NCBI RefSeq assembly: GCF_001428255.1 | Contig: NZ_LMRW01000001.1 | Span: 312,504 to 376,503, forward strand | Origin: Agromyces sp. Soil535 | Lineage (GTDB): Bacteria; Actinomycetota; Actinomycetes; Actinomycetales; Microbacteriaceae | DNA length: 64,000 bases | Reading direction: 5' to 3' | Shown here: positions 1,612-21,202 of the stretch, in pieces | How the letters are laid out: the number at the start of each line of letters is the position of its first letter | Position numbering within the stretch: position 1 is the first letter of the stretch | Made by a program: the position numbers and the translations under genes | Notes under the pieces: model-generated | Told to the model about the DNA's origin: nothing | What the model saw: only the letters and a program-made list of their open reading frames with translations | Databases searched by the model: none

Positions 1612-3792
1612 CTACTCGCCCGTGGGGTGCGCCTTCGCCCGGTCGATCACCCACGCGTACGCGAACGCGCGCTCCCGCCACGCCGAGTAGCGCCCCGACA
1701 CCCCGCCGTGCCCGGCGGCCATCTCGGTCTTCAGCAGCGGGTCGGCGCCCGCATCCCGCAGGCGGGCAACCCACTTCGCGGGCTCGACGTAGAGCACGCG
1801 GGTGTCGTTCAGCGAGGTCACGGCGAGGATCGGCGGGTAGTGGTTCTCGTGCACATTCTCGTAGGGCGAGTACGACTTCATGTAGGCGTACACCTCCGCG
1901 TCGTCGAGCGGGTTGCCCCACTCGTCCCACTCGATCACGGTGAGCGGCAGCGACGGGTCGAGGATCGAGGTCAGCGGGTCGACGAACGGCACCTCGGCGA
2001 GGAACCCGGAGAAGTACCGCGGCGCGAGGTTGGCGACCGCGCCGACGAGCAGCCCGCCGGCGCTGCCGCCCTGCGCGACCAGCCGGTCGGGGGCGGTGAC
2101 ATCCTCGTCGATGAGGTGCCGGGCCACGGCCACGAAGTCCGTGAACGTGTTGCGCTTCTCGAGCCGCTTGCCGTGCTCGTACCAGAGCCGGCCCATCTCG
2201 CCGCCGCCGCGCACGTGGGCCACGGCGAAGATCATGCCGCGATCCAGCAGCGAGAGGCGCGGGATGCCGAACGCGGGGTCGATCGCGTGCTCGTAGGAGC
2301 CGTAGCCGTAGAGCAGGGTCGGCGCGGGCGTGCCGAGGTCGACGAGGTCGTGCCGGTACACGAGCGAGATCGGGATGCGCGTGCCGTCGTCGGCGATCGC
2401 CCACTCGCGGCGCTGCGCATATCGGGTGGCGTCGTAGTCGCCGAGCACCACCTGGCGCTTGCGCAGCTTGCGCTCGCCTGTCGCGACGACGACGTCGTAC
2501 ACGGTGGACGGCGTCACGAAGCTCGAGTACCCGATGCGCAGCATCGGCTGGTCCCATGCGGGATTGCCGCCGACGCCCACCGAGAACAGCGCCTCGTCGA
2601 ACGCGAGCTCGTGCAGGGTGTCGTCGGGCGTGCCAGCTTCCGTGGGCGCTGTCGCGGGCAGGCCTGACGGCGGCACCTTCGCGATCGCCACGCGGGGCAG
2701 GCCCTCCCTGCGGTACTCGACGGCCACGAAGTCGCGGAACGCGTCGACGCTCTCGATGCGCGTTGCGGGGTCGTGCGGCAGCAGCATCCGTCGCGGCCCC
2801 TGCGGGTCGGATGCCGCGACGCTCACGAGCTCGAAGTTCATCGCGCCGTCGTTGTGCACGACGAGCAGCCGGTCCCTGCCGCCGGCGACCACGTGCTCGA
2901 CGTCGTACTCGACGCCCTCCTTGCGCGGCCACACCACCGTGAACTCGTCGGCAGGCGCCTCGCCGTCGAGGAGCCACGTCTCGCTCGTGACGTTCGAGCC
3001 CGCCTCGATCATGAGGAACTTCCGGCTGCGAGTGACGCCGACGCCGAGCCAGAACCGCTCGTCGGGTTCGTGGAACACCGAGACGTCGTCGGATGCCGAG
3101 GTGCCTACCTCGTGCCGCCAGACCGTGTCGGGGCGCCACGACTCGTCGACCGTCGCATAGAAGAGGTAGCGCCCGCTCGGATCGAACACCGCGCCCGCGG
3201 CCGTGCCCTCGATGACGTCGTCGAACTCGCGTCCCGACCCGTCGATCGCGCGCAGGCGGATCGTGTATCGCTCGTCGCCCTCGACGTCGGTGGCGTAGAG
3301 CATCGTCGATCCGTCGGAGGTCACGTCGAAGCTGCCGAGCGCGTAGTACTCGCGGCCCTCGGCCTCGAGGTTGTCGTCGAGCAGCACCTGCTCGCCCGGG
3401 ATCGCCGCGGGCGCGGCATCCGTCACCTCGGATGCCTCGGGCAGCACGGGCGGCTCCCAGTCGTCGGGGCCCGCGATCGGGGCTCGGCAGTGGATGCCGT
3501 ACTGCTGGCCCTCGACCGTGCGCGTGTAGTACCACCAGTCGCCTTCGCGGCTCGGAACGCTGAGGTCGGTCTCCTTGGTGCGGGCCCGGATCTCCTCGAA
3601 CAGCTGCTCCTGCAGGATCGAGAGGTGCTCGGTCTTCGCCTTCGTGTAGGCGTTCTCCTCGTGCAGGTGTGCGATCACCGCGGGATCGTCCTTCGCGCGG
3701 AGCCACTCGTAGTCGTCGACATAGACGTCGCCGTGGTGCACGCGTTCGATCGGTCGCTTCTCGGTCGTGGGGGGAGTGAGCACGGTCTCCAC
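1612..3792 (-). CDS. ptrB: S9 family serine peptidase, oligopeptidase B type
   Basis: Cytoplasmic prolyl-oligopeptidase-fold enzyme that cuts short peptides, in oligopeptidase B after Lys/Arg. The N-terminal part (from RVHHGDVYVDDYEWLRAKDD) and propeller are typical of the family. The C-terminal hydrolase has the nucleophile elbow GGSAGG (Ser near 575), an Asp in SLNDTRVLY (near 661) and a His in AAGHGG (near 690). The length of about 726 residues is normal. The open frame extends 15 codons further to GTG 3837, but that start lacks a ribosome site; GTG 3792 has GAGGG upstream and fits family N-termini. It is divergent from the iron-boxed fusion gene, with about 175 bp between starts. Confidence 0.88.
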   Translation of the reverse strand: METVLTPPTTEKRPIERVHHGDVYVDDYEWLRAKDDPAVIAHLHEENAYTKAKTEHLSILQEQLFEEIRARTKETDLSVPSREGDWWYYTRTVEGQQYGIHCRAPIAGPDDWEPPVLPEASEVTDAAPAAIPGEQVLLDDNLEAEGREYYALGSFDVTSDGSTMLYATDVEGDERYTIRLRAIDGSGREFDDVIEGTAAGAVFDPSGRYLFYATVDESWRPDTVWRHEVGTSASDDVSVFHEPDERFWLGVGVTRSRKFLMIEAGSNVTSETWLLDGEAPADEFTVVWPRKEGVEYDVEHVVAGGRDRLLVVHNDGAMNFELVSVAASDPQGPRRMLLPHDPATRIESVDAFRDFVAVEYRREGLPRVAIAKVPPSGLPATAPTEAGTPDDTLHELAFDEALFSVGVGGNPAWDQPMLRIGYSSFVTPSTVYDVVVATGERKLRKRQVVLGDYDATRYAQRREWAIADDGTRIPISLVYRHDLVDLGTPAPTLLYGYGSYEHAIDPAFGIPRLSLLDRGMIFAVAHVRGGGEMGRLWYEHGKRLEKRNTFTDFVAVARHLIDEDVTAPDRLVAQGGSAGGLLVGAVANLAPRYFSGFLAEVPFVDPLTSILDPSLPLTVIEWDEWGNPLDDAEVYAYMKSYSPYENVHENHYPPILAVTSLNDTRVLYVEPAKWVARLRDAGADPLLKTEMAAGHGGVSGRYSAWRERAFAYAWVIDRAKAHPTGE

Positions 3793-3893
3793 GGTACGCC
3801 CTCGGGCGCTCGCCGACGCAGGCGTGCGTGACGCCACTGGCCGGTTACGCGGATGAAGCGGAGCCGGGCATCCGGTTCGCGTGCGAAGTGCAG

Positions 3894-3912
3894 TTAGGTT
3901 AGCCTTCTCTCA
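3894..3912 (+). promoter_or_regulatory. DtxR/IdeR-like iron box
   Basis: TTAGGTTAGCCTTCTCTCA keeps the left half of the actinobacterial DtxR consensus TTAGGTTAGSCTAACCTAA exactly and a degenerate right half. It lies 56 bp before the start of the adenylation/acyltransferase fusion. The same TTAGGTTAGCCTT core occurs before efeU (10414) and a close relative before fbpA (10290), so iron-dependent repression of this gene is likely. Confidence 0.65.
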
Positions 3913-3967
3913 CTTCCCCGACGACGCCTGCGTCGACGAACCCCCCCCGACATCCCGGAGGCGAAGC

Positions 3968-6607
3968 GTGCCCATCACCCGCTCGCTCGAGACGACCGCG
4001 CTGCGGCTGGCGCGCGGCGGCGCCTCCGAGACGGCGCTGCTCACCGGTGACGCGGCGCTCGACTACGGCGACCTGCGGGACCGCATCGACGCCCGCAGGA
4101 GCGAACTCGGGCCCACCCGCCGGCTGGTGATGATCGCCGGCGCGAACGAGGTCGAGCCGATCGTGACGTACCTCGCCGCGCTCGAGGGCGGACATCCGGT
4201 GCTCTTCGTCGACGGCGACCGCACCCGCGCCGGGGGCGCCGAGCACCGCGACGGCCTCGTCGAGCGGTTCGACCCCGACGTCGTCGCAGCCGACGACGGG
4301 GAGTGGGAGCTCGTCGAGCGCCGCGCCGGTACCCGGCACGAGCTGCACCCCGATCTCGCGCTGCTCGCGAGCACGTCGGGGTCGACGGGATCGCCGAAGC
4401 TCGTGCGGCTGAGCCGCGACAACCTGCAGAGCAACGCCGTCGCGATCGGCGACTACCTCAACCTCGGTGAGGGCGATCGCGCTGCGACGACGCTGCCGCT
4501 GCACTACTGCTACGGACTCTCGGTCGTGAACAGCCACCTCGTCGCCGGCGGCAGCCTGCTGCTGACCTCTCGCTCCGTCGTGGAGGAGCCGTTCTGGGAG
4601 GAGTTCGGGACGGCCGGAGCGACGTCGTTCGCCGGGGTCCCGTACACCTTCGACCTCCTCGAGGCGAGCGGCTTCGAGCGCCGGGCGATTCCGAGCCTGC
4701 GATACGTCACCCAGGCCGGTGGCCGCCTCCACCCCGATCGCGTGCGTCGCTTCGCCGCGCTCGGGCGGGAGCGGGGCTTCGAGTTCACCGTCATGTACGG
4801 GCAGACCGAGGCGACGGCACGCATGGCCTACCTGCCGCCACGGCTCGCCGAGACCGCGGCGGGGGCGATCGGCATCCCGATCCCGGGCGGCCGGTTCCGC
4901 ATCGACGGGCCGTCAGCCGAGGGCGTCGGCGAACTCGTGTACGACGGGCCGAACGTCATGATGGGCTATGCGACCGAGCCTGCCGACTTCGCATCCGGTC
5001 GCATCGTCGACGAGCTCCGCACCGGGGACCTCGCCCGTCGGCGCCCCGACGGGCTCTTCGAGATCGTCGGCCGTGCGAACCGGTTCGTGAAGGTGTTCGG
5101 GCTTCGCATCGACCTCGACCGCGTCGAGCGCCTGTTCGATGAGCACGACGTGCCGGTGCGCGCAGCGAGCGCCGACGAGCGCCTGCTGCTGTTCGTCACG
5201 GCCGACCGGCTCGTCGATCGCGCCCGCGAACGCGCGATGGAGATCACCCGCCTGCCCGCCCACGTCATACGGGTGCACGCCGTCGCCGAGTTCCCGCGCA
5301 CGGCCAGCGGCAAGCCCGACACGGCGGCGCTCGTGCGATACGCCGCCGAGCTCGAGGCCGCGCAGGCCGGCGTTTCGCGCGGCGACGGCGTCACGCCCGA
5401 GACGATCCGGGCCCTCTACGCCGAGCTGCTCGGTCGGCCCGACACCGAGGCCGACGACTCGTTCGCGGGTCTCGGCGGCGATTCGCTCAGCTACGTCGAG
5501 GTGTCGCTGCGGCTCGAGGAGCTGCTCGGAGCGCTGCCCCGCGAGTGGCCGTCGATGTCGGTGCGCGAGCTCGCCGAGCTGGGCGCACCCGCTACGCCCG
5601 CGGCATCCGAGCGGCCGGCCGTCGATGCCTCCGAGGCGGCATCCGACGAGGCCGCGCCGACCGTCGCGCCGGCCGTCCGCTCGCGCAGGTGGATGCCCCG
5701 CGTCGAGACTCCCGCGGTCCTGCGAGCCCTGGCGATCGTGCTCATCGTCGGCACGCACGCCAACCTCTTCGACCTCAAGGGCGGCGCCCACCTGCTGCTG
5801 GCGGTCGCCGGGTACAACCTGGCCCGCTTCCAGCTGGCGGATGTCGCGGGCCGCCACCGATCGCTCGGCATCCTGAAGAGCACCGCCCAGGTCGTCGTCC
5901 CTGCGGTGATCTGGATCGGCGCGGTGGCCCTCGTGACCGGGGGATACCGACCCGCGACGGTGCTGCTGGTCAACAACTTCGGCGGCGACGCTGCGTGGAG
6001 CGTGCACTGGCAATTCTGGTTCATCGAAGCCGTGACGTGGACGATGCTCGTGCTCGCCGCAGTGTTCGCGATCCCGCACGTCGACCGGCTCGAGCGCCGG
6101 TATCCGTTCGGCTTCGCCTTCGGCGTGCTCGGTGCGGCGCTCACTGCCCGGGTGGCGTTCCTCGGGGGCGTCGAGGCCCATGCGACCGAGCGCTACACGA
6201 CGCTCATGGTCGTGTGGTGCATCGCGCTCGGCTGGCTCGTCGCCCGCTCGGGCACGCTGCGCCAGCGCCTGGTGACCTCGGCCGTCGCGTGCGTCGCGGT
6301 GCCAGGCTTCTTCGGAACCCCGTCGCGCGAGGCGATCGTGCTCGTCGGCATCCTCGTGCTGCTCTGGTTCCCGACGCTGCCCGTGTTGCGACCGCTGGTG
6401 CCCGTCGTCGGCGTGCTCGCGGGCGCGTCGATGTTCATCTACCTGACCCACTGGCAGGTCTACCCGCCGCTCGAGGACCACGTGCCGTGGCTCGCCACCC
6501 TGCTCTCGCTCGCGGTCGGCGTCGCGGTGTGGAAGGCGTACACGTTCGTGGTCGCCCGCGCGGGGCGCGCGATCAGGCGCCGGGCGTCAGCGAGGGTGCA
6601 GACGTGA
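3968..6607 (+). CDS. Adenylation domain - carrier domain - membrane acyltransferase fusion protein
   Basis: About 879 residues in three parts. Residues about 1-450 form an AMP-forming acyl-activating enzyme with the P-loop STSGSTGSPK (near 135), YGQTEA (near 276), a TGDL motif and a C-terminal catalytic Lys in RTASGKPD. Residues about 470-560 form a phosphopantetheine carrier, with GLGGDSL giving the Ser attachment site near 505. After an Ala/Pro/Glu linker come about 300 hydrophobic residues with some ten membrane segments, beginning LRALAIVLIVGTHANLF. The early His, the GGAHLLLAVAGY segment and the topology resemble acyltransferase-3 (OafA-type) proteins. It should activate an acid, load it on the carrier and transfer it across or at the membrane; acid and acceptor are unknown. 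GTG 3968 has GGAGG six bases upstream. A DtxR-like box precedes it, and its 3' end overlaps fbpC by 35 bp. Confidence 0.78.
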   Translation: MPITRSLETTALRLARGGASETALLTGDAALDYGDLRDRIDARRSELGPTRRLVMIAGANEVEPIVTYLAALEGGHPVLFVDGDRTRAGGAEHRDGLVERFDPDVVAADDGEWELVERRAGTRHELHPDLALLASTSGSTGSPKLVRLSRDNLQSNAVAIGDYLNLGEGDRAATTLPLHYCYGLSVVNSHLVAGGSLLLTSRSVVEEPFWEEFGTAGATSFAGVPYTFDLLEASGFERRAIPSLRYVTQAGGRLHPDRVRRFAALGRERGFEFTVMYGQTEATARMAYLPPRLAETAAGAIGIPIPGGRFRIDGPSAEGVGELVYDGPNVMMGYATEPADFASGRIVDELRTGDLARRRPDGLFEIVGRANRFVKVFGLRIDLDRVERLFDEHDVPVRAASADERLLLFVTADRLVDRARERAMEITRLPAHVIRVHAVAEFPRTASGKPDTAALVRYAAELEAAQAGVSRGDGVTPETIRALYAELLGRPDTEADDSFAGLGGDSLSYVEVSLRLEELLGALPREWPSMSVRELAELGAPATPAASERPAVDASEAASDEAAPTVAPAVRSRRWMPRVETPAVLRALAIVLIVGTHANLFDLKGGAHLLLAVAGYNLARFQLADVAGRHRSLGILKSTAQVVVPAVIWIGAVALVTGGYRPATVLLVNNFGGDAAWSVHWQFWFIEAVTWTMLVLAAVFAIPHVDRLERRYPFGFAFGVLGAALTARVAFLGGVEAHATERYTTLMVVWCIALGWLVARSGTLRQRLVTSAVACVAVPGFFGTPSREAIVLVGILVLLWFPTLPVLRPLVPVVGVLAGASMFIYLTHWQVYPPLEDHVPWLATLLSLAVGVAVWKAYTFVVARAGRAIRRRASARVQT

Positions 6608-14500: not shown

Positions 14501-14581
14501 GTCTCCCACGGGATCGAGGACGGGCGGGTGCTGTTCGCCTGAGGTACTCAGGCCGCCAGTCGCGGCCGGGCGCGGCGAAAT

Positions 14582-14635
14582 TAGGGCGATCGCCCGATGA
14601 GTGCCGGATGCCTCAGCGCGCACGCTGGGAGCATC
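14582..14635 (+). promoter_or_regulatory. Conserved promoter block, copy 1 (GGGCGATCGCCC palindrome)
   Basis: Begins TAGGGCGATCGCCCGATG and ends with GCATC, with a second inner palindrome AGCG-N4-CGCT. Copy 2 at 17877-17930 has the same length and spacing. Each lies before one of the two ~62-residue paralogous genes. GGGCGATCGCCC is a perfect 12-bp palindrome. The likely binder is the LuxR-type regulator encoded beside copy 2; that is inference. Confidence 0.6.
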
Positions 14636-14657
14636 AACCGGACCCCAGGAGGATCCC

Positions 14658-14843
14658 ATGCAGCACTCGGCCGACTTCACGTCACTGCTCGGATACCAGG
14701 CCGACGTCGCCCGCGCCGAGCGGGAGATCGAGTTCCGCCGCGCCGCCGCAGAGCGGCGCGCGCTCGAGCCGGAGCCCGCGTCGGCCGCATCCGGCCTACG
14801 TCGCCGGCGCCAGCAGCGCACCACGCGGCTCGCGCTGCGGTGA
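14658..14843 (+). CDS. Small conserved protein, paralogue of 17967-18155
   Basis: 61 residues behind a strong AGGAGG. The sequence starts MQHSADFTSLLGYQADVARA and ends in a basic tail RTTRLALR. The paralogue at 17967 starts MQFSADFVALGMHQADVLRA and ends RTPQLALR; both have AEREI near residue 20, a variable charged middle and an Arg-rich end. No membrane segment, signal or known domain was recognised. Unlike the paralogue this copy is not followed by a LuxR gene. An upstream in-frame ATG at 14601 falls inside the conserved promoter block and is less likely. Function unknown; a role as a target or small partner of the LuxR regulator is speculation. Confidence 0.75.
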   Translation: MQHSADFTSLLGYQADVARAEREIEFRRAAAERRALEPEPASAASGLRRRRQQRTTRLALR

Positions 14844-14912
14844 TCCGCACCCATGCCGCCGCCTCGCCGTGACGCTGCGCACTCGCCCCGATCTCGGAGG
14901 GCGACGAGCAGC

Positions 14913-15320
14913 TCACTCCTCCTCGATCTCCGCGACCTCCCACCGGTCGTCGCCGAGCGGGCGAAGCACGCCCCGAACCCGCTCCCCGTCGCGCACGGCC
15001 TGCCACGCGAGCGGCGCCAGGGTGTTCCCGGCGAGCTGCATGCTGCCGCTGAAGGTCGGCGTCTCGTAGCCGAGCGAGATGAGGGCGTCGGCGCGTTGCC
15101 GGGAGTCCCAGATCCCCGAGAGCGACCAGGTCATCGCCACGATGGCGAGCGCCGCGACGAGGAACATGACGTAGCCCGATTCCCGCATCGGCTTCGACCC
15201 GTACCTCGTGCCGACCACCGACGCGGCGATACCGACGACGGCCAGGATTCCGGGGAAGATCAGCGGCCACGGGCTCCACGGCTCGATCACCACCACCTCG
15301 CCGATCGCCTCCGCGAGCAT
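14913..15320 (-). CDS. Small membrane protein of unknown function
   Basis: 135 residues. Two membrane segments (about 17-35, WPLIFPGILAVVGIAASVV, and 50-68, YVMFLVAALAIVAMTWSLS) with a short polar turn between, then a soluble C-terminal half rich in Gly/Arg/Glu ending EIEEE. The arrangement resembles many actinobacterial two-helix hypothetical proteins. I recognise no motif. It is alone on the minus strand between the small-protein gene and the MocR-type regulator. Confidence 0.6.
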   Translation of the reverse strand: MLAEAIGEVVVIEPWSPWPLIFPGILAVVGIAASVVGTRYGSKPMRESGYVMFLVAALAIVAMTWSLSGIWDSRQRADALISLGYETPTFSGSMQLAGNTLAPLAWQAVRDGERVRGVLRPLGDDRWEVAEIEEE

Positions 15321-15407
15321 CGGGACCCCGCCCTCGTCGTCCGGAATGGTCCGTCCACATGCTCCTCCTCACGGCGGGGGGCGACAAGGGCGCGCACGCC
15401 CCGTGGA

Positions 15408-16853
15408 TCACACCACCGCGAGGATCGCCGCTCGGATCCGCGCAAGCCCTTCCGCGAGCTGCGTGTCGCCGGGCCCCGCGTAGCCGAACACGATGCCCGG
15501 CTCCTCGTCGCCCGGCACGGCCGAGTAGTCGCCGAGGCTCGCGACCGCGATGCCCTCGGCGGCGAGTCCCGCCACCACCGCAGCGGATGCCGCGTGGCCG
15601 GGCAGTCGCACCACGGCGTGCAGCCCGCCGTCGAGCCCCGAGAGCGGCGCTCCGGGGATCCCGTCGAGCGCGTCGAGCACCAGCCGTCGGCGGTGCGCGT
15701 AGTCGCGGCGGGTCACGGCGATGTGCCGTCGCACGGCGCCGCTCGCGAGCAGGGCGGCCGCGGCATCCTGCACGACCCCAGGCACTGGGCACGGCTCGTC
15801 GGCCCGGATGTCGTCGATCGCCTCGCGCAACGCCTGGCTCTGCGGAAGCACGAGGTAGCCGAGCCGCAGCCACGGGGTGAGCACCTTCGAGAAGCTCCCG
15901 ACCAGCACGACGCCGCCGCCGTCGTCGAGCGAAGCGAGGGCGGGCAGGGGAGGCCCGAGGTGGCGGAACTCGCTGTCGTAGTCGTCCTCGATGACGACCG
16001 CGCCGGCGCTGCCGGCCCACTCGAGCAGCTCGAGCCTGGCCGCGACCGGCAGCCGGCCGCCGAGGGGGTACTGGTGGCTCGGGGTCACCATGACCGCATC
16101 GGGCACCTGCGGCATCCGTCGCAGGGCGTCGACGACGAGCCCGTCGGCGTCGACCGCGACGGGCGCGGTGCGCGCGCCGCGACGCTCCAGCGTGCGCCGC
16201 GCCGACGGATAGCCGGGGTGCTCCACCGCGATCACGGGAGCGCGACCGACGATGGAAGTGAGAGCGGATGCCGCGAGCCCGACCGCCTCGCTGGTGCCCG
16301 CCGTGACGACCACGTCGTCGGCATCGCACGCGACCCCGCGGGCATGGCGCAGGTGGTCGGCGATCTCCTCGCGCAGGTGTCGCACGCCGAAGGGGGGCGG
16401 CGAGTTCGACGGGATGTCGAGGGCTGCGGCCTGTCGCCACGCCGCCCGCCAGGCACGCGTGTCGATGCGCGCGGTCGACGGCCGGCCGGGCAGCAGGTCG
16501 ATGCGCGGCGCGACGGACTCGGGCGGGACCCCGACCGCCGGGGCGTGCGCTCGTGCGGCGCCACGGTGGTGCCCGGATCTCTCGTGCCCGTGCGCGTGAG
16601 CGTGGTCGAGCTCGGCGACGCGGGTCGGCGCGCCCTGGCGCATCTCGAGGTAGCCCTCGCCGGCGAGCTGCTCGTAGGCGGCCACGACGGCGCTGCGCGA
16701 GACGCCGAGCTCGGCCGCGAGCGCGCGCGTCGAGGGCACGGGGTCGCCCTGCCGGAGCGCACCGTCGAGGATGCCGCGCCGAAGTCCATCGACGAGCTGC
16801 TCGCCGACGCGGCGTCCGCCGCCGCGGTCGATGACGAGGATCGGTCCGTCCAC
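15408..16853 (-). CDS. MocR/PdxR-family regulator (GntR HTH + aminotransferase-like domain)
   Basis: 481 residues. A GntR winged helix (about 1-75, LADGL-like RRGILDGALRQGDPVPSTR and ELGVSRSAVVAAYEQL) is fused to a fold-type I aminotransferase domain (about 115-480). The PLP site is SFSKVLTPWLRLGY with Lys near 321; the Asp and Tyr of EDDYDSEF are present. Such proteins sense PLP or a related amine and often control vitamin B6 genes. GTG 16853 follows GGAGGA by five bases and starts exactly at the family N-terminus. It is divergent from a PNPOx-like gene with 87 bp between. Confidence 0.87.
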   Translation of the reverse strand: MDGPILVIDRGGGRRVGEQLVDGLRRGILDGALRQGDPVPSTRALAAELGVSRSAVVAAYEQLAGEGYLEMRQGAPTRVAELDHAHAHGHERSGHHRGAARAHAPAVGVPPESVAPRIDLLPGRPSTARIDTRAWRAAWRQAAALDIPSNSPPPFGVRHLREEIADHLRHARGVACDADDVVVTAGTSEAVGLAASALTSIVGRAPVIAVEHPGYPSARRTLERRGARTAPVAVDADGLVVDALRRMPQVPDAVMVTPSHQYPLGGRLPVAARLELLEWAGSAGAVVIEDDYDSEFRHLGPPLPALASLDDGGGVVLVGSFSKVLTPWLRLGYLVLPQSQALREAIDDIRADEPCPVPGVVQDAAAALLASGAVRRHIAVTRRDYAHRRRLVLDALDGIPGAPLSGLDGGLHAVVRLPGHAASAAVVAGLAAEGIAVASLGDYSAVPGDEEPGIVFGYAGPGDTQLAEGLARIRAAILAVV

Positions 16854-16873
16854 TTCGTCCTCCAACCTGCTCG

Positions 16874-16920
16874 ACTGGACTGCCGGATGCTGCGAGAACT
16901 GGACTGCGCGGCGAACCAGT
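16874..16920. promoter_or_regulatory. Direct repeats between mocR-type gene and PNPOx-like gene
   Basis: ACTGGACTGC occurs at 16874-16883 and again at 16898-16907, 24 bp apart start to start, with an inverted CCAGT at about 16916-16920. MocR/PdxR proteins generally bind direct repeats plus an inverted half-site, and the C. glutamicum PdxR site (as I recall, GTGGACTA-like) is similar to TGGACTG. A shared operator for the divergent pair is likely. Confidence 0.5.
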
Positions 16921-16940
16921 GTGCTCGCGAGACTAGCAGC

Positions 16941-17621
16941 GTGACCCTGACGAACACCACCGCCCCCCGCCGCATCCGCCGACTCGCCGAGCGGCAGACC
17001 ACCGACCGCGACGCGCTCTTCGCGCTGCTCGACGGGGAGCTCGTCGGCCATCTCGCGGCCGTCGTCGACGGCCAGCCCGTCATCGTGCCGATGGGCTATG
17101 CACGGGACGGCGACCATGTGCTCGTTCACGGCTCGACCGGCGGCGGATTCGCCCTTCGGGCGGCGGCCGAGCGAGCTACCGTCGCCTTCTCGGTGACGGC
17201 GCTAGACGGCCTCGTGTTCGCCCGCTCGCTCTTCGACAGCTCGATGAACTACCGCAGCGCCGTCGTCTACGGCGTGCTCGAACCGGTCGACGACGAGCAG
17301 TCGGAGGCCGCGCTCCTCGCGCTCTCCGACCGGCTCATGCCGGGTCGGGCCGCCGAGGTGCGCGCCATCACCCGCAAGGAGGCCGCGGCGACCCGCGTGC
17401 TGCGCCTCGCCCTCGATGACGTCGTCATGAAGGCACGTGCCGCCGGGGCATCCGAGGACCTCGACGACGGCGAGGACCACTCGGTCTGGGCCGGCGTCGT
17501 GCCGCTCGTGCGCACCTGGGGTGCGCCCGTCCCGTCCCGATCGACCCCAGCGCATACCCCGACCCCGGATTCGGTGGTCGCACTGACGACGGGCTCCCTC
17601 GCGGAGCACAGACTTCCCTGA
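16941..17621 (+). CDS. Pyridoxamine 5'-phosphate oxidase-like (FMN split-barrel) protein
   Basis: 226 residues. The flavin-reductase/PNPOx-like barrel is clear: DALFALLDGELVGHLA, PVIVPMGYARDGDHVLVHGST, VAFSVTALDGLVFARS, NYRSAVVYGVLE. The pattern matches the pyridoxamine 5'-phosphate oxidase-related family that is very often divergent from MocR regulators. FMN binding is expected; the true substrate is not known and may not be B6. Start GTG 16941 keeps the family start and leaves the intergenic repeats free. The C-terminal 25 residues are Pro/Thr-rich and look disordered. Confidence 0.78.
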   Translation: MTLTNTTAPRRIRRLAERQTTDRDALFALLDGELVGHLAAVVDGQPVIVPMGYARDGDHVLVHGSTGGGFALRAAAERATVAFSVTALDGLVFARSLFDSSMNYRSAVVYGVLEPVDDEQSEAALLALSDRLMPGRAAEVRAITRKEAAATRVLRLALDDVVMKARAAGASEDLDDGEDHSVWAGVVPLVRTWGAPVPSRSTPAHTPTPDSVVALTTGSLAEHRLP

Positions 17622-17638
17622 TGGAAAGGAGGTGCGCG

Positions 17639-17749
17639 ATGTTCGCGACCATGCTCGTGCTCGGACTGTTCGCCGCTACGGCGATCACGACCGCGCTCGT
17701 GCAGTTCCGACGTGACGGCTACCGCCGTACGCCGACCATGCTGCACTGA
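17639..17749 (+). CDS. Tiny single-helix membrane protein
   Basis: 36 residues: MFATMLVLGLFAATAITTAL in one membrane helix followed by a basic tail VQFRRDGYRRTPTMLH. A textbook AAAGGAGG ribosome site lies seven bases before ATG 17639, and the gene starts 17 bp after the PNPOx-like gene, so the two are probably co-transcribed. N-out with a positive C-terminal tail inside is predicted. No family recognised, but the strong ribosome site argues that it is translated. Confidence 0.6.
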   Translation: MFATMLVLGLFAATAITTALVQFRRDGYRRTPTMLH

Positions 17750-17807
17750 GTCGATACGACCCGACGAACGAACGCGCCCCCGCTCGACGCCCACCGTCGA
17801 TCGGCAC

Positions 17808-17853
17808 GTCCGGGCCCCCTTCCGGCCCGGACGGCTCAGGCACCTGAGGTGCC
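17808..17853 (+). terminator. Two adjacent hairpins after the tiny membrane protein gene
   Basis: GTCCGGGCC (17808-17816) pairs perfectly with GGCCCGGAC (17824-17832) across seven bases. Immediately after, GGCACC (17839-17844) pairs with GGTGCC (17848-17853). There is no T tract, as is usual in high-GC actinobacteria. Position between an operon end and the next promoter block suggests a terminator. Confidence 0.55.
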
Positions 17854-17876
17854 GTGAGCACACCCCTGCCCGGAAA

Positions 17877-17930
17877 TAGGGCGATCGCCCGATGGGGCGG
17901 AGGTGCCTTAGCGAGCACGCTGAAGGCATC
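17877..17930 (+). promoter_or_regulatory. Conserved promoter block, copy 2
   Basis: Same 54-bp layout as 14582-14635: TAGGGCGATCGCCCGATG, then ten variable bases, then TGCCTTAGCGAGCACGCTG, three variable bases and GCATC. TGCCT..AGCG and CGCT..AGGCA here form an extended imperfect palindrome. It precedes the small gene that is coupled to the LuxR regulator, implying autoregulation plus control of copy 1. Confidence 0.6.
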
Positions 17931-17966
17931 CGATGGAACCCGTCGGACCGTTCATCAGGAGGAATC

Positions 17967-18155
17967 ATGCAGTTCTCTGCGGACTTCGTCGCACTCGGGA
18001 TGCACCAGGCCGACGTGTTGCGCGCCGAGCGCGAGATCGGTCGTCGCATGAGTGCCGAGGAGCGCGGCTCGGATGACACCGGGGCGTCGCCTGAGCCGTC
18101 CATGCACCGCCGCCACCGCGCGCACCGCCGCACGCCGCAGCTCGCCCTGCGGTGA
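17967..18155 (+). CDS. Small conserved protein coupled to a LuxR-type regulator
   Basis: 62 residues behind AGGAGG. Starts MQFSADFVALGMHQADVLRA, has AEREIGRRMSAEER and ends in a His/Arg tail with RTPQLALR. It matches the protein at 14658-14843 at both ends (about 20 N-terminal and 8 C-terminal residues) but not in the middle. Its stop overlaps the regulator start by four bases (GTGA), so both are made from one message and translation is coupled. No known domain. The coupling suggests the peptide binds or modulates the regulator; this is inference. Confidence 0.75.
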   Translation: MQFSADFVALGMHQADVLRAEREIGRRMSAEERGSDDTGASPEPSMHRRHRAHRRTPQLALR

Positions 18156-21100
18156 GCACGACCGCCTCCCGCGATGTCGGTGGGGCGTGGCACCATGAGA
18201 TGGTGACCATGTCAGCGCCGGCGATGATCGGCCGCGACGCCGATCTCGCGAGGCTCGACGAACGCCTCGACGAGGTGCGTGCGGGGGCGCCCTTCACCGT
18301 CATCGTCGGCGGCGAGGCCGGCATCGGCAAGACGCGGCTCATCCGCGAGTTCGAGGCCGGGCTCCCCGCCGACGTGCGGCTGCTCGCCGGGCAGTGCGTC
18401 GACCTCGGCAGCGTCGCGGCGCCGTACGCTCCGGTGAAGACGGCGCTGCGCACGCTCGTCGCCCAGGAGGGGGCTGAGCGCGTGCTCGAGGCCGTCGGCC
18501 CCGGGCGGGCCGCCCTCGTCGCGCTGCTGCCCGAACTCGCGGCATCCGACGCCGAGACCGCGGCGCCGACGACCCCTCCTGCCGCCGGCGCCGTCACGGG
18601 GCAGTTGCACGAGGCCATCGCGGTGCTCCTCGAGACCTTCTCACGCGAGCGGCCCATCGTCTTCGTCATCGAAGACCTCCACTGGATCGACGCGGCGAGC
18701 CTCGCGCTGCTGCGCTTCCTCATGCGCGCGCTCGGCTCGAGCCGCGTGCTCACGGTGCTGAGCTATCGCACCGAAGACGTCACGCGGGGGCATCCGGTGC
18801 GCGCGTTCCTGTCCGAGGCCGAGCGCGACCGCTGGGTCGAGCGCCGCGATCTCGGTCGGCTCTCGCGCGCCCAGGTGCGCAAGCTCGCGAAGTCGCTCAT
18901 CGTCGACGAGACGCCGAGCGAGAACGTGTTCGACACGGTGTTCCGCCGCAGTGACGGCGTGCCGTTCTTCGTCGAGGAGCTCGTCGGCATCGACGGATGC
19001 CGCGAAGAGGGCATCGTGCCCGACACCCTCCGCGAACTCCTCCTCGCCCGCTACGAGCGGCTGTCCGAGCCGGCGCAAGAGCTCCTGCGCCTCATCTCCA
19101 CGGGCGGCGTGCGCATCTCGCACGCGTTGCTGTCCGAGGTCTACGCCGGCACGGCCGACCAACTCGACGCCGCGGCGCGCGAGAGCGTGCTCTTCGGGGT
19201 GCTCACGATCGAGGGAGACGACTACGCGTTCCGGCACGCACTGGTACGCGAGGCGATCCTCTCCGACCTGCTGCCGGGCGAGCGTGCGCGGTTCCATGCT
19301 CGCTATGCCGAGGCCTACGAAGCCGCGGCGGCCGCGGGCACTCGCCGGCTCGCCGCCGAGATCTCCTATCACTGGCTCGGCGCGCACGATGCCGTCCGCG
19401 CGTTCCCCGCCACGATGCAGGCGATGCGTGAGGCGCGCGCCGCCACCGCGTACGCCACGGCCGCGCAGCTCGGCGAGCGGGCGCTCGGCCTCTGGGACGT
19501 CGTGCCCGACCCCGCGGCAGTGGCCGGCATGGGCAAGCTCGAGCTCATGGGTCGCACCGCCTCCCACCTCCGCAACGCTGGGGAAGACGAGCGCAGCCTC
19601 GCGCTCGTGAAGGCGGCGCTCGCCGAGTGCCCGCGCGATGACCCCAATTACCCGCGACTCCTGCGCGACAAGGCGCTCTACCTCGGCAACGTCGGCAAGC
19701 CGGGCTCGATCCCGTTGCTCGAGGAGGCGCTCGAGGCTCTCGGCGAATCCGGGCCGAGCGACCTGCGCGCCACCGTGCTCACGGCGCTCGCCGGTCGGCT
19801 CATGATCGACGGCCGGCTCGATGACGCCGTCGACACCGCCGAACGCGCACTCGCGGTGGCGGTCGAGATCGGGTCGCCTCGGTACTCGTCGATCGCCACG
19901 AACCTCTCCGGCGTGAGCCGCGCCGAGCGTGGCGAGGTCGAACGGGCGCTGGCGCTCCTCGAGCGCGCCTGCGAGCTCGCCGAAGGCGACGGCGCCGCCC
20001 TGCTGCGCTACTGGGTGAACGCATCCGACCTGTACTACCTCATCGGCGACCACCACGAGGCCGTGCGGCTCGCGGAGGAGGGTCTCGCGGCGGCTCGCGC
20101 GCAGGGCCTCGAGCGCACCTCCGGCGTCATCCTCGCGTCGAACGCGGTCGATCCGCTCTTCGCACTCGGCGAGTGGGAGCGCGCCGAGGTGCTCATCGAT
20201 CGCGCGCTCGCGCTCGACGCGCCCGCGCCGTTCACGGTGTACCTGCAGCGCGCACGCATCTGGGCGATGCTCTGGCGCGGCGACACCGCGAGCGCCACCG
20301 AGCTGTACCGCATCGCGCGCTCGTCCATGGCCCCCGTCATGGAGGTCGAGATGCAGACCCGACTCGGCGTCGGCCGCGTCGCCGCGGAGCTCGCACTCGC
20401 GAACGACGACCTGCCCGGCGCGTGGCGCGAGGCCCGCGTGCTGCTGCAGGAGGAGCACCTGCCACTGGCGGGCTATGCACTGCCGTTCCTCTGGGTCACA
20501 GCTCGGGTCGTCGCCGCCGTGCGCGCCCGGCCGCACGCCGTCACCGAGTCGGTGGCAACCGCGGTGGAAGCCGCCGAACCGGAGTTCCGCGCGCTCCTCG
20601 ACCAGCTCGCGTTCTGGCCCACCCAGCCGATGTGGGCGGCCCTCTTCGAGGCCGAGCTCGCCGAGGCATCCGACGGCGCCGGTGCAGGCGTGCCGGGCAC
20701 CGACGTGGGCGTGTGGCGCTCGGCGGTCGAGGCATCGGCCGCCCCGACGGCGCCGGGCTTCCTCGCGGCCTACGCGCTGCTGCGCCAGGCGGAGGCGGAG
20801 CTGGCGGGCGCCGACCGCCCCGCAGCGCGTGCGTCCCTGCAGGCTGCCCTCGACGTCGCGGAGTCCGGTGGGGTGTTCGCGGTGCGCGACCGTGTCGTGC
20901 GCGTCGCGTCGGCCGCCGGGGTGTCCCTCGACGGCGTGGGTGGCGGCGCCGGGCTGGTCGCGCCCCATGGCGGCGTGGCAGGCTCCGCGGCATCCGACGC
21001 CGACGCGGCCGCGACCGCCGAGCTCACCGCGCGGGAACGCCAGGTGCTCGAGCTCATCGCCGAGGGCCTCAGCAACCGGCAGATCGGCGAGCGGCTCTTC

Positions 21101-21202
21101 ATCAGCGGCAAGACCGCGAGCGTGCACGTGTCGGCGATCCTGCGCAAGCTCGGCGCGGCGACCCGTACCGAGGCGGCGTACCGGGCGGGCGCGCTGCGCT
21201 GA
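18152..21202 (+). CDS. Large LuxR-type (LAL) ATPase transcription regulator
   Basis: 1016 residues. An N-terminal AAA/NTPase has Walker A GGEAGIGKT (53-61) and Walker B FVIEDLHW (near 171). A long helical middle part is of MalT/TPR character, and a C-terminal LuxR HTH (about 950-1010) reads LTARERQVLELIAEGLSNRQIGE in two parts and continues FISGKTASVHVSAILRKLG. Proteins of this LAL class switch on transcription when a ligand and ATP are bound. GTG 18152 overlaps the preceding small gene by four bases; ATG 18200/18209 would be internal alternatives. It probably acts on the GGGCGATCGCCC blocks nearby, but the ligand is unknown. Confidence 0.88.
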   Translation: MSTTASRDVGGAWHHEMVTMSAPAMIGRDADLARLDERLDEVRAGAPFTVIVGGEAGIGKTRLIREFEAGLPADVRLLAGQCVDLGSVAAPYAPVKTALRTLVAQEGAERVLEAVGPGRAALVALLPELAASDAETAAPTTPPAAGAVTGQLHEAIAVLLETFSRERPIVFVIEDLHWIDAASLALLRFLMRALGSSRVLTVLSYRTEDVTRGHPVRAFLSEAERDRWVERRDLGRLSRAQVRKLAKSLIVDETPSENVFDTVFRRSDGVPFFVEELVGIDGCREEGIVPDTLRELLLARYERLSEPAQELLRLISTGGVRISHALLSEVYAGTADQLDAAARESVLFGVLTIEGDDYAFRHALVREAILSDLLPGERARFHARYAEAYEAAAAAGTRRLAAEISYHWLGAHDAVRAFPATMQAMREARAATAYATAAQLGERALGLWDVVPDPAAVAGMGKLELMGRTASHLRNAGEDERSLALVKAALAECPRDDPNYPRLLRDKALYLGNVGKPGSIPLLEEALEALGESGPSDLRATVLTALAGRLMIDGRLDDAVDTAERALAVAVEIGSPRYSSIATNLSGVSRAERGEVERALALLERACELAEGDGAALLRYWVNASDLYYLIGDHHEAVRLAEEGLAAARAQGLERTSGVILASNAVDPLFALGEWERAEVLIDRALALDAPAPFTVYLQRARIWAMLWRGDTASATELYRIARSSMAPVMEVEMQTRLGVGRVAAELALANDDLPGAWREARVLLQEEHLPLAGYALPFLWVTARVVAAVRARPHAVTESVATAVEAAEPEFRALLDQLAFWPTQPMWAALFEAELAEASDGAGAGVPGTDVGVWRSAVEASAAPTAPGFLAAYALLRQAEAELAGADRPAARASLQAALDVAESGGVFAVRDRVVRVASAAGVSLDGVGGGAGLVAPHGGVAGSAASDADAAATAELTARERQVLELIAEGLSNRQIGERLFISGKTASVHVSAILRKLGAATRTEAAYRAGALR

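Follow-up and report, generated by a model that had tools for sequence, protein, structure and literature searches.

The stretch of DNA analysed here, referred to below as the window, comprises 64,000 nucleotides of the genome of Agromyces sp. Soil535 (contig NZ_LMRW01000001.1, positions 312,504 to 376,503 of the forward strand). It contains two copies of a conserved promoter block, each preceding a small open reading frame (ORF), and the second small ORF overlaps the gene for a large ATP-binding regulator of the LuxR family (LAL), a member of the signal transduction ATPases with numerous domains (STAND). The two blocks, the two small ORFs and the LAL gene had been described in an initial annotation of this DNA, and all were found where it had put them when the coordinates were rechecked in the window. 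They are listed here together with the parts of each block; transcription start sites are placed by inference, because relatives have an ATG at columns 57-58 of the 63-column block alignment (A2).

14577..14639, plus strand: promoter block 1, placed by alignment A2 (match to the block profile R2 at 14578-14637, 50.2 bits)
14581..14598, plus strand: 18-bp dyad of block 1, predicted LAL operator, with left end TTAGGG replacing ATAGGG (conserved dyad centre at A2 column 13.5)
14611..14616, plus strand: CCTCAG, putative spacer element of block 1 (A2 columns 35-40, of which C36, T37 and A39 are invariant)
14621..14626, plus strand: CACGCT, -10-like hexamer of block 1 (A46 and T50 in 64 of 64 rows), predicted transcription start near 14633
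14658..14843, plus strand: small ORF 1, 61 amino acids (aa), no LAL attached
17872..17934, plus strand: promoter block 2 (R2 match at 17872-17932, 57.3 bits)
17876..17893, plus strand: 18-bp dyad ATAGGGCGATCGCCCGAT of block 2, predicted LAL operator
17906..17911, plus strand: CCTTAG, putative spacer element of block 2
17916..17921, plus strand: CACGCT, -10-like hexamer of block 2, predicted transcription start near 17928
17967..18155, plus strand: small ORF 2, 62 aa, modelled by AlphaFold2 as one helix (residues 2-40) with a low-confidence tail
18152..21202, plus strand: LAL/STAND regulator, 1016 aa, with AAA_16, TPR_12 and a GerE helix-turn-helix (HTH), overlapping small ORF 2 through GTGA

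Within the window, TAGGGCGATCGCCCGATG occurs exactly at 14582-14599 and 17877-17894 on the plus strand, and at up to three mismatches its sole further match is the opposite strand of the second palindrome; mismatch-free TAGGGCGATCGCCC is confined to the same two places in the whole 4.83-Mb genome. Block length and spacing, initially described as identical, are so inside the 54-bp block; the distance from TAGGG to the ATG is 76 nt for block 1 and 90 nt for block 2, so the identity of spacing stops short of the start codon. Profile R2 detects three sites in this genome (E 5.2e-15, 8.7e-13 and 1.4e-10), each ahead of an ORF of 61-65 aa, the third (C24:119815-119870) preceding a 65-aa ORF of the type defined below as B; the next matches start at E 0.004 and were taken as a tail of noise. 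Four LAL-like matches are present in the same genome at E<=1e-15, and a block is linked to the window LAL only. One relative (L326) carries a same-position paralogue of small ORF 1 with its own block.

Among 64 aligned copies from across Microbacteriaceae, the block has the consensus ATAGGG-N6-CCCGATG-N11-CCTYAGnGnGnAnnnT, with fixed spacing. These copies, chosen for alignment A2, comprise part of the Agromyces blocks and 39 of 44 non-Agromyces blocks (L367, L377, L387, L392 and L394 were omitted); alignment A1 was cut from 51 to 47 blocks by dropping the near-duplicate or weak L216, L224, L250 and L257. Positions G9, C18, G20, A21, C36, T37, A39, A46 and T50 are invariant in the 64 blocks, and the columns conserved to at least 90% further include T6, A7, T22, C35 and G40. 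A single dyad stands out, centred at column 13.5 (5.75 of 9 pairs, the next best reaching 4.28), and no -35 element is conserved in the 64 blocks. AGCG-N4-CGCT, regarded at first as a conserved palindrome, was dropped as a second dyad (3.55 of 9 pairs at centre 44.5); the conserved elements are instead CCTYAG and A-N3-T. In eight rows of A2, selected for having an ATG at columns 57-58, this codon opens ORFs of 50-67 aa, seven of soluble type and one of membrane type. If columns 45-50 are the -10 element, +1 falls at about column 57, on the ATG, and the mRNAs of these eight rows would hence be leaderless. We infer that, with column 57 as +1, A46 and T50 lie at -11 and -7, CCTYAG spans -22 to -17 and the dyad is centred at -43.5. 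The most plausible reading of CCTYAG and A-N3-T is a spacer element and a -10 element, respectively, and the block is, judged from its sequence, a complete promoter.

The products of small ORFs 1 and 2 are 50% identical and, as had been noticed from the start, share MQ-SADF, QADV-RAEREI and LALR. Small ORFs behind blocks fall into three types, namely A (MQxSADF..ADV.RAEREL), B (M.ISE.xFPHL..ELERRRV..ER) and C (MNLAxGYIAQTL..NERRR); the first 33 or so residues of types A and B can be aligned with no internal gap, and the sequences diverge outside a short core. An ORF of 25-125 aa with a Shine-Dalgarno sequence follows 71 of 91 distinct blocks matched by regular expression, compared with 120 of 1820 random positions in the same loci, and the starts lie mostly 74-94 nt from the block. 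Purifying selection on the small ORFs was found, with a median ratio of non-synonymous to synonymous substitution rates (dN/dS) of 0.38 for type A (50 close pairs, not independent) and likewise 0.38 for solitary type B ORFs (12 pairs, not independent). The promoter is indeed better kept than the protein, with mean pairwise identities of 0.73 and 0.46, respectively, for 37 ORFs. The initial remark that no known family was recognised also held in Pfam and NCBIfam, where neither the window ORFs nor three B-type ORFs had a match above the curated cut-off. DUF5431 was matched by 3 of 49 members of small-protein set A3 (best E 0.0094, cut-off not shown), and the small-protein profile had no match in the PDB at E<=0.1. 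The AlphaFold2 model of small ORF 2, a lone helix followed by its low-confidence tail (mean predicted local distance difference test score 75.8, predicted template modelling score 0.44), says little. A separate observation concerns L290 in A. cerinus (2875-3537), where the B-type N-terminus is kept and the frame extends to 220 aa, possibly through a frameshift.

Blocks located after the LAL or divergent from it often precede a second kind of product, a tiny membrane protein with RDGY..PT, and most of the non-LAL blocks examined precede a lone tiny protein that is either charged and helical or of this membrane class (..RDGY..PT).

The regulator has an N-terminal P-loop ATPase domain (AAA_16, 1.3e-29, residues 26-201, GGEAGIGKT being visible) and a C-terminal LuxR/GerE HTH (GerE, 1.5e-18, residues 957-1010), and its 1016 aa fit the size range of large LAL regulators, which is about 900-1100 residues. 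The NCBIfam MalT model scores 45.7 bits on it against a cut-off of 537, the best stretch covering residues 955-1013 only, and in a PDB sequence search the HTH alone matched, with DosR/DevR and NarL among the best. The recognition helix conforms to KTxSVHV[ST]x[IV]LxK in 52 of 52 LAL HTHs compared, a type of helix that is common in actinobacterial LuxR proteins. TGGCACCATGAGATGGTGACC, at window positions 18188-18211, resembles a leaderless -10 element with a start codon, and may represent a second promoter or the true LAL start at GTG 18203; A. cerinus has a similar sequence directly ahead of the conserved LAL N-terminus. TGGCAC(G/C)ATGAGAT(G/C)GTGACC, shared by the window and A. cerinus and located slightly inside the LAL ORF, may likewise point to a second start at 18203.

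The coupling of small ORF 2 to the LAL gene through GTGA, as first described, was confirmed at 18152. An overlap in the LAL frame recurs in 20 of the 22 readable operons among 34 looked at (18 GTGA, one ATGA and one CTGA), a bias with a binomial p of 3e-8 against one third when relatedness is ignored. Such consistency would be expected if the small ORF served chiefly as a leader that couples translation of the LAL to its own, with an idle peptide. However, copies without a LAL in the fetched 6-kb stretch are common and conserved (dN/dS 0.38), small ORF 1 keeps its LALR end with no LAL behind it, and in three genomes (G271, G108 and G279) a soluble small ORF, instead of the membrane type, follows the LAL with its own block. 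Conservation of such solitary and displaced copies makes it very unlikely that the small ORF serves as a leader alone.

In a set of 60 genomes made up of the own genome and its relatives, 13 have the exact 18-mer: the own one, 12 of the 36 others from the genus and none of the 23 from other genera; the reversed control had no match in the same set. Each of the 14 exact copies is followed by an ORF of 58-62 aa, all of one kind. When one mismatch was allowed, the 18-mer was found in only 11 of 398 Microbacteriaceae genomes (2 of 85 genera), and profile searches took its place. A contig-wide scan with TAGGGCGATCGCCC was also abandoned; among the matches listed, it was swamped by cyanobacterial GCGATCGC sites, which we take to be HIP1, and the loci examined from those matches were in Agromyces cerinus (L080) and Rathayibacter (L039) only.

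The LAL was detected at E<=1e-100 in 57 of 60 Agromyces genomes, five of which have only distant LALs of about 40% identity, and a profile built from sequence only (R1) matches 57 of the 60, with many copies away from the LAL. Of 55 stretches fetched, 54 lie ahead of LAL matches and one (L246) surrounds an already known block; the block is present in 45 of them, in 49 copies overall. The ten with no block even at E<=10 comprise six LAL orthologues and four short contig ends or distant paralogues (L255, L256, L258 and L259). Forty R1 matches not upstream of a LAL were examined, mostly below E 1e-3, most of the weaker ones lying outside this sample; in 38 of the 40 a small ORF of 61-83 aa comes next (that of L314 is known from start-codon analysis only), the two exceptions being L290 and L325.

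Beyond the genus, R1 at E<=1e-4 matches 53 of 398 Microbacteriaceae genomes in 20 of 85 genera. From 51 non-Agromyces matches, 44 were examined, and three more were seen (G174, G437 and G356). A LAL lies downstream on the same strand in 33 of these 44 (as a fragment in two cases), five copies are located just after a LAL, one is divergent from it and five have no LAL in the fetched stretch. With the family profile R2 at E<=1e-3, a block was detected in 100 of the 398 genomes, and a LAL at E<=1e-100 in 90; blocks are present in 87 of the 90 LAL genomes versus 13 of the 308 others (Fisher p 2.6e-69, not corrected for relatedness). In the three genomes with a LAL and no block at this threshold, a weak match to the block lies next to the LAL (E 6e-5 to 0.01 for 67 kb searched). 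Among the 13 block-only genomes, four (G419, G440, G271 and G448) carry a LAL or LAL fragments adjoining the block, and the other nine have partial matches (E 1.4e-5 to 9e-4), with no LAL seen near the block in G277, the one of the nine that was examined. In total, 82 of 127 blocks lie directly upstream of a LAL match, at 160-732 bp on the same strand; the others are just after a LAL (9), divergent from it (4), within 15 kb (4), farther away on the same contig (5), on another contig (8) or in genomes without a detected LAL (15). As an observation apart, L420 contains, at 3301-3990, near-identical inverted repeats with GGTTGCCGTTTCTTTGACGC in tandem upstream of a LAL; they may have displaced the promoter of that LAL.

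In a sample of the order, 20 of 198 genomes have a match, nine of them outside Microbacteriaceae. Six of these nine show a block, then a small ORF (43-105 aa), then a LAL-like gene (an HTH match only in L407), two have partial matches with neither small ORF nor LAL-like gene, and the ninth is the match at L409 described below. The block is neither absent from relatives nor randomly placed in them, and the initial suggestion of a small regulon tied to the LAL is borne out on a wider scale than the window, family-wide and in other families of the order.

From these sequence comparisons, the LAL probably binds the dyad and activates its own operon and the microprotein genes from the block. A dimer of the C-terminal LuxR-type HTH would bind the 18-bp dyad AT(A/C)GGG-N6-CCC(G/T)AT near -43.5, replacing a -35 element, and the bound LAL would activate RNA polymerase at a weak -10 element (N-A-N-N-N-T), aided by CCTYAG at -22 to -17. 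The predicted targets would be the LAL operon, that is small ORF and LAL under positive autoregulation, and a few tiny genes elsewhere, for a charged microprotein of a single helix, for a tiny membrane protein or for both kinds. Apart from its own gene, the LAL appears to switch on hardly anything except a few tiny proteins.

Several observations sit uneasily with this reading. Because the profiles used to collect the 64 blocks already include the conserved columns, the invariance seen is somewhat inflated. Six Agromyces LAL orthologues (L210, L227, L245, L248, L252 and L253) have no adjacent block at E<=10 in the fetched upstream stretch; the genomes of L227, L252 and L253 have one 3.5-4.3 kb upstream that is followed by a small ORF, L210 and L245 have a stop codon inside the LAL match, and L248 comes from a fragmented assembly. 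At L416, in G271, no small ORF separates the block from the LAL behind it. Targets are also not only tiny proteins, because a block is found before two other kinds of ORF. At L325 (G466:C1:127701-127760), a strong block (E 4.6e-16) some 10.6 kb from the LAL precedes a 444-462-aa ORF, named FAD-oxidase-like by sequence look only, and this is the sole strong Agromyces block examined that does not precede a tiny protein. At L409, in another family of the order, a weaker block-like match around position 5000 (E 5.3e-5, covering columns 2-41) is followed after 96 nt by an 81-aa ORF, presumably WhiB-like with an AT-hook-like basic tail, and may link this promoter type to a WhiB regulator.

The blockless orthologues and the match at L409 would also fit a promoter that belongs to another factor, such as an alternative sigma factor or a global regulator, with the LAL merely one member of the regulon, and conservation does reach past the dyad, taking in CCTYAG and A-N3-T with their fixed spacing, much like a sigma-type promoter. 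Nevertheless, the blocks track this LAL genome by genome, and only one of the four LAL-like genes of the own genome is linked to them; the five Agromyces genomes with only distant LALs have weak block matches only (E 7e-4 to 9e-3); and the centre of the dyad has the position expected for a LuxR-type activator that stands in for the -35 element, of which none is conserved. Control by another factor is improbable on this evidence.

The LAL would be inactive until a signal causes its multimerisation, as for the Escherichia coli STAND activator MalT, and the tiny proteins could target either the LAL or its signal, whether by inhibition, as partners or as tethers to the membrane, and may hold or release the LAL. 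By analogy, we tentatively consider that they could feed back on the LAL. Alternatively, they could be effectors at the output of the circuit, such as stress or envelope proteins, that do not regulate the LAL at all, a reading which has a real chance of being correct, if somewhat less than an even one: the tiny proteins include a membrane class and a basic-tailed helical one, and the divergence outside the short core would suit effectors, but tiny proteins are nearly the whole detected regulon and are linked to the LAL in many genera. A bolder proposal is a self-contained switch, present throughout the family, whose STAND activator devotes nearly its whole regulon to itself and to two microproteins (one helical with a basic tail, the other membrane-anchored) that set its activity, possibly by capping the LAL oligomer and tethering it to the membrane; this we regard as doubtful.

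LAL/STAND activators are numerous in actinobacteria and, to our knowledge, few outside antibiotic clusters have known targets. For one LAL subfamily, dozens of genomes now offer a candidate operator, promoter and start site together with a list of predicted targets. The C-terminus belongs to the same HTH family as NarL/DevR-type and PAS-LuxR (PimM) regulators, and GGG-Nx-CCC dyads are present in DevR and PimM boxes; the system described here differs in its N6 spacing, in the fixed extra CCTYAG element and in that no receiver or PAS domain was found in the LAL. MalT binds asymmetric repeated boxes, whereas the predicted LAL operator is an 18-bp dyad. The LAL resembles MalT in its N-terminal AAA-type ATPase, TPR-like region and C-terminal LuxR HTH, but the regulon of MalT is metabolic, while the targets here would be the regulator's own operon and microproteins. 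Inhibitory proteins, MalY among them, sequester MalT in its inactive form (PMC10427625). The Streptomyces SARP-LAL regulator PimR has a unique target gene, binds heptameric direct repeats via its SARP domain and is without a C-terminal HTH (PMC5930380); it is similar as a large ATP-binding regulator with a narrow target, and differs from the LAL system, which has an inverted repeat (dyad at column 13.5) and a C-terminal HTH. The regulon is not described in the consulted parts of PMC10427625, PMC3466318 and PMC5930380, and no description of the LAL, block and microprotein system was found in a literature search whose coverage left out most subscription journals. Most of the predicted targets are microproteins without a match to any named family, and the circuit therefore allows direct tests of how microproteins and a STAND ATPase cooperate. 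The promoter profile can also be used to find tiny genes that annotation may miss.

Further genes lie between small ORF 1 and block 2.

16941..17621, plus strand: neighbouring Pyridox_ox_2 protein, upstream of the membrane ORF; membership of the regulon is not claimed
17639..17749, plus strand: predicted membrane ORF, 36 aa (MFATMLVL..RRDGYRRTPTMLH), without its own block here

A MocR-type regulator (GntR and aminotransferase) is divergent from the Pyridox_ox_2 gene (window 15411-17621), which directly precedes the 36-aa membrane ORF. The latter ORF is one of the tiny membrane kind; its best matches, both below cut-off, have E 0.077 in Pfam and 0.068 in NCBIfam, and its relatives carry their own block in some Agromyces (L234 and L235).

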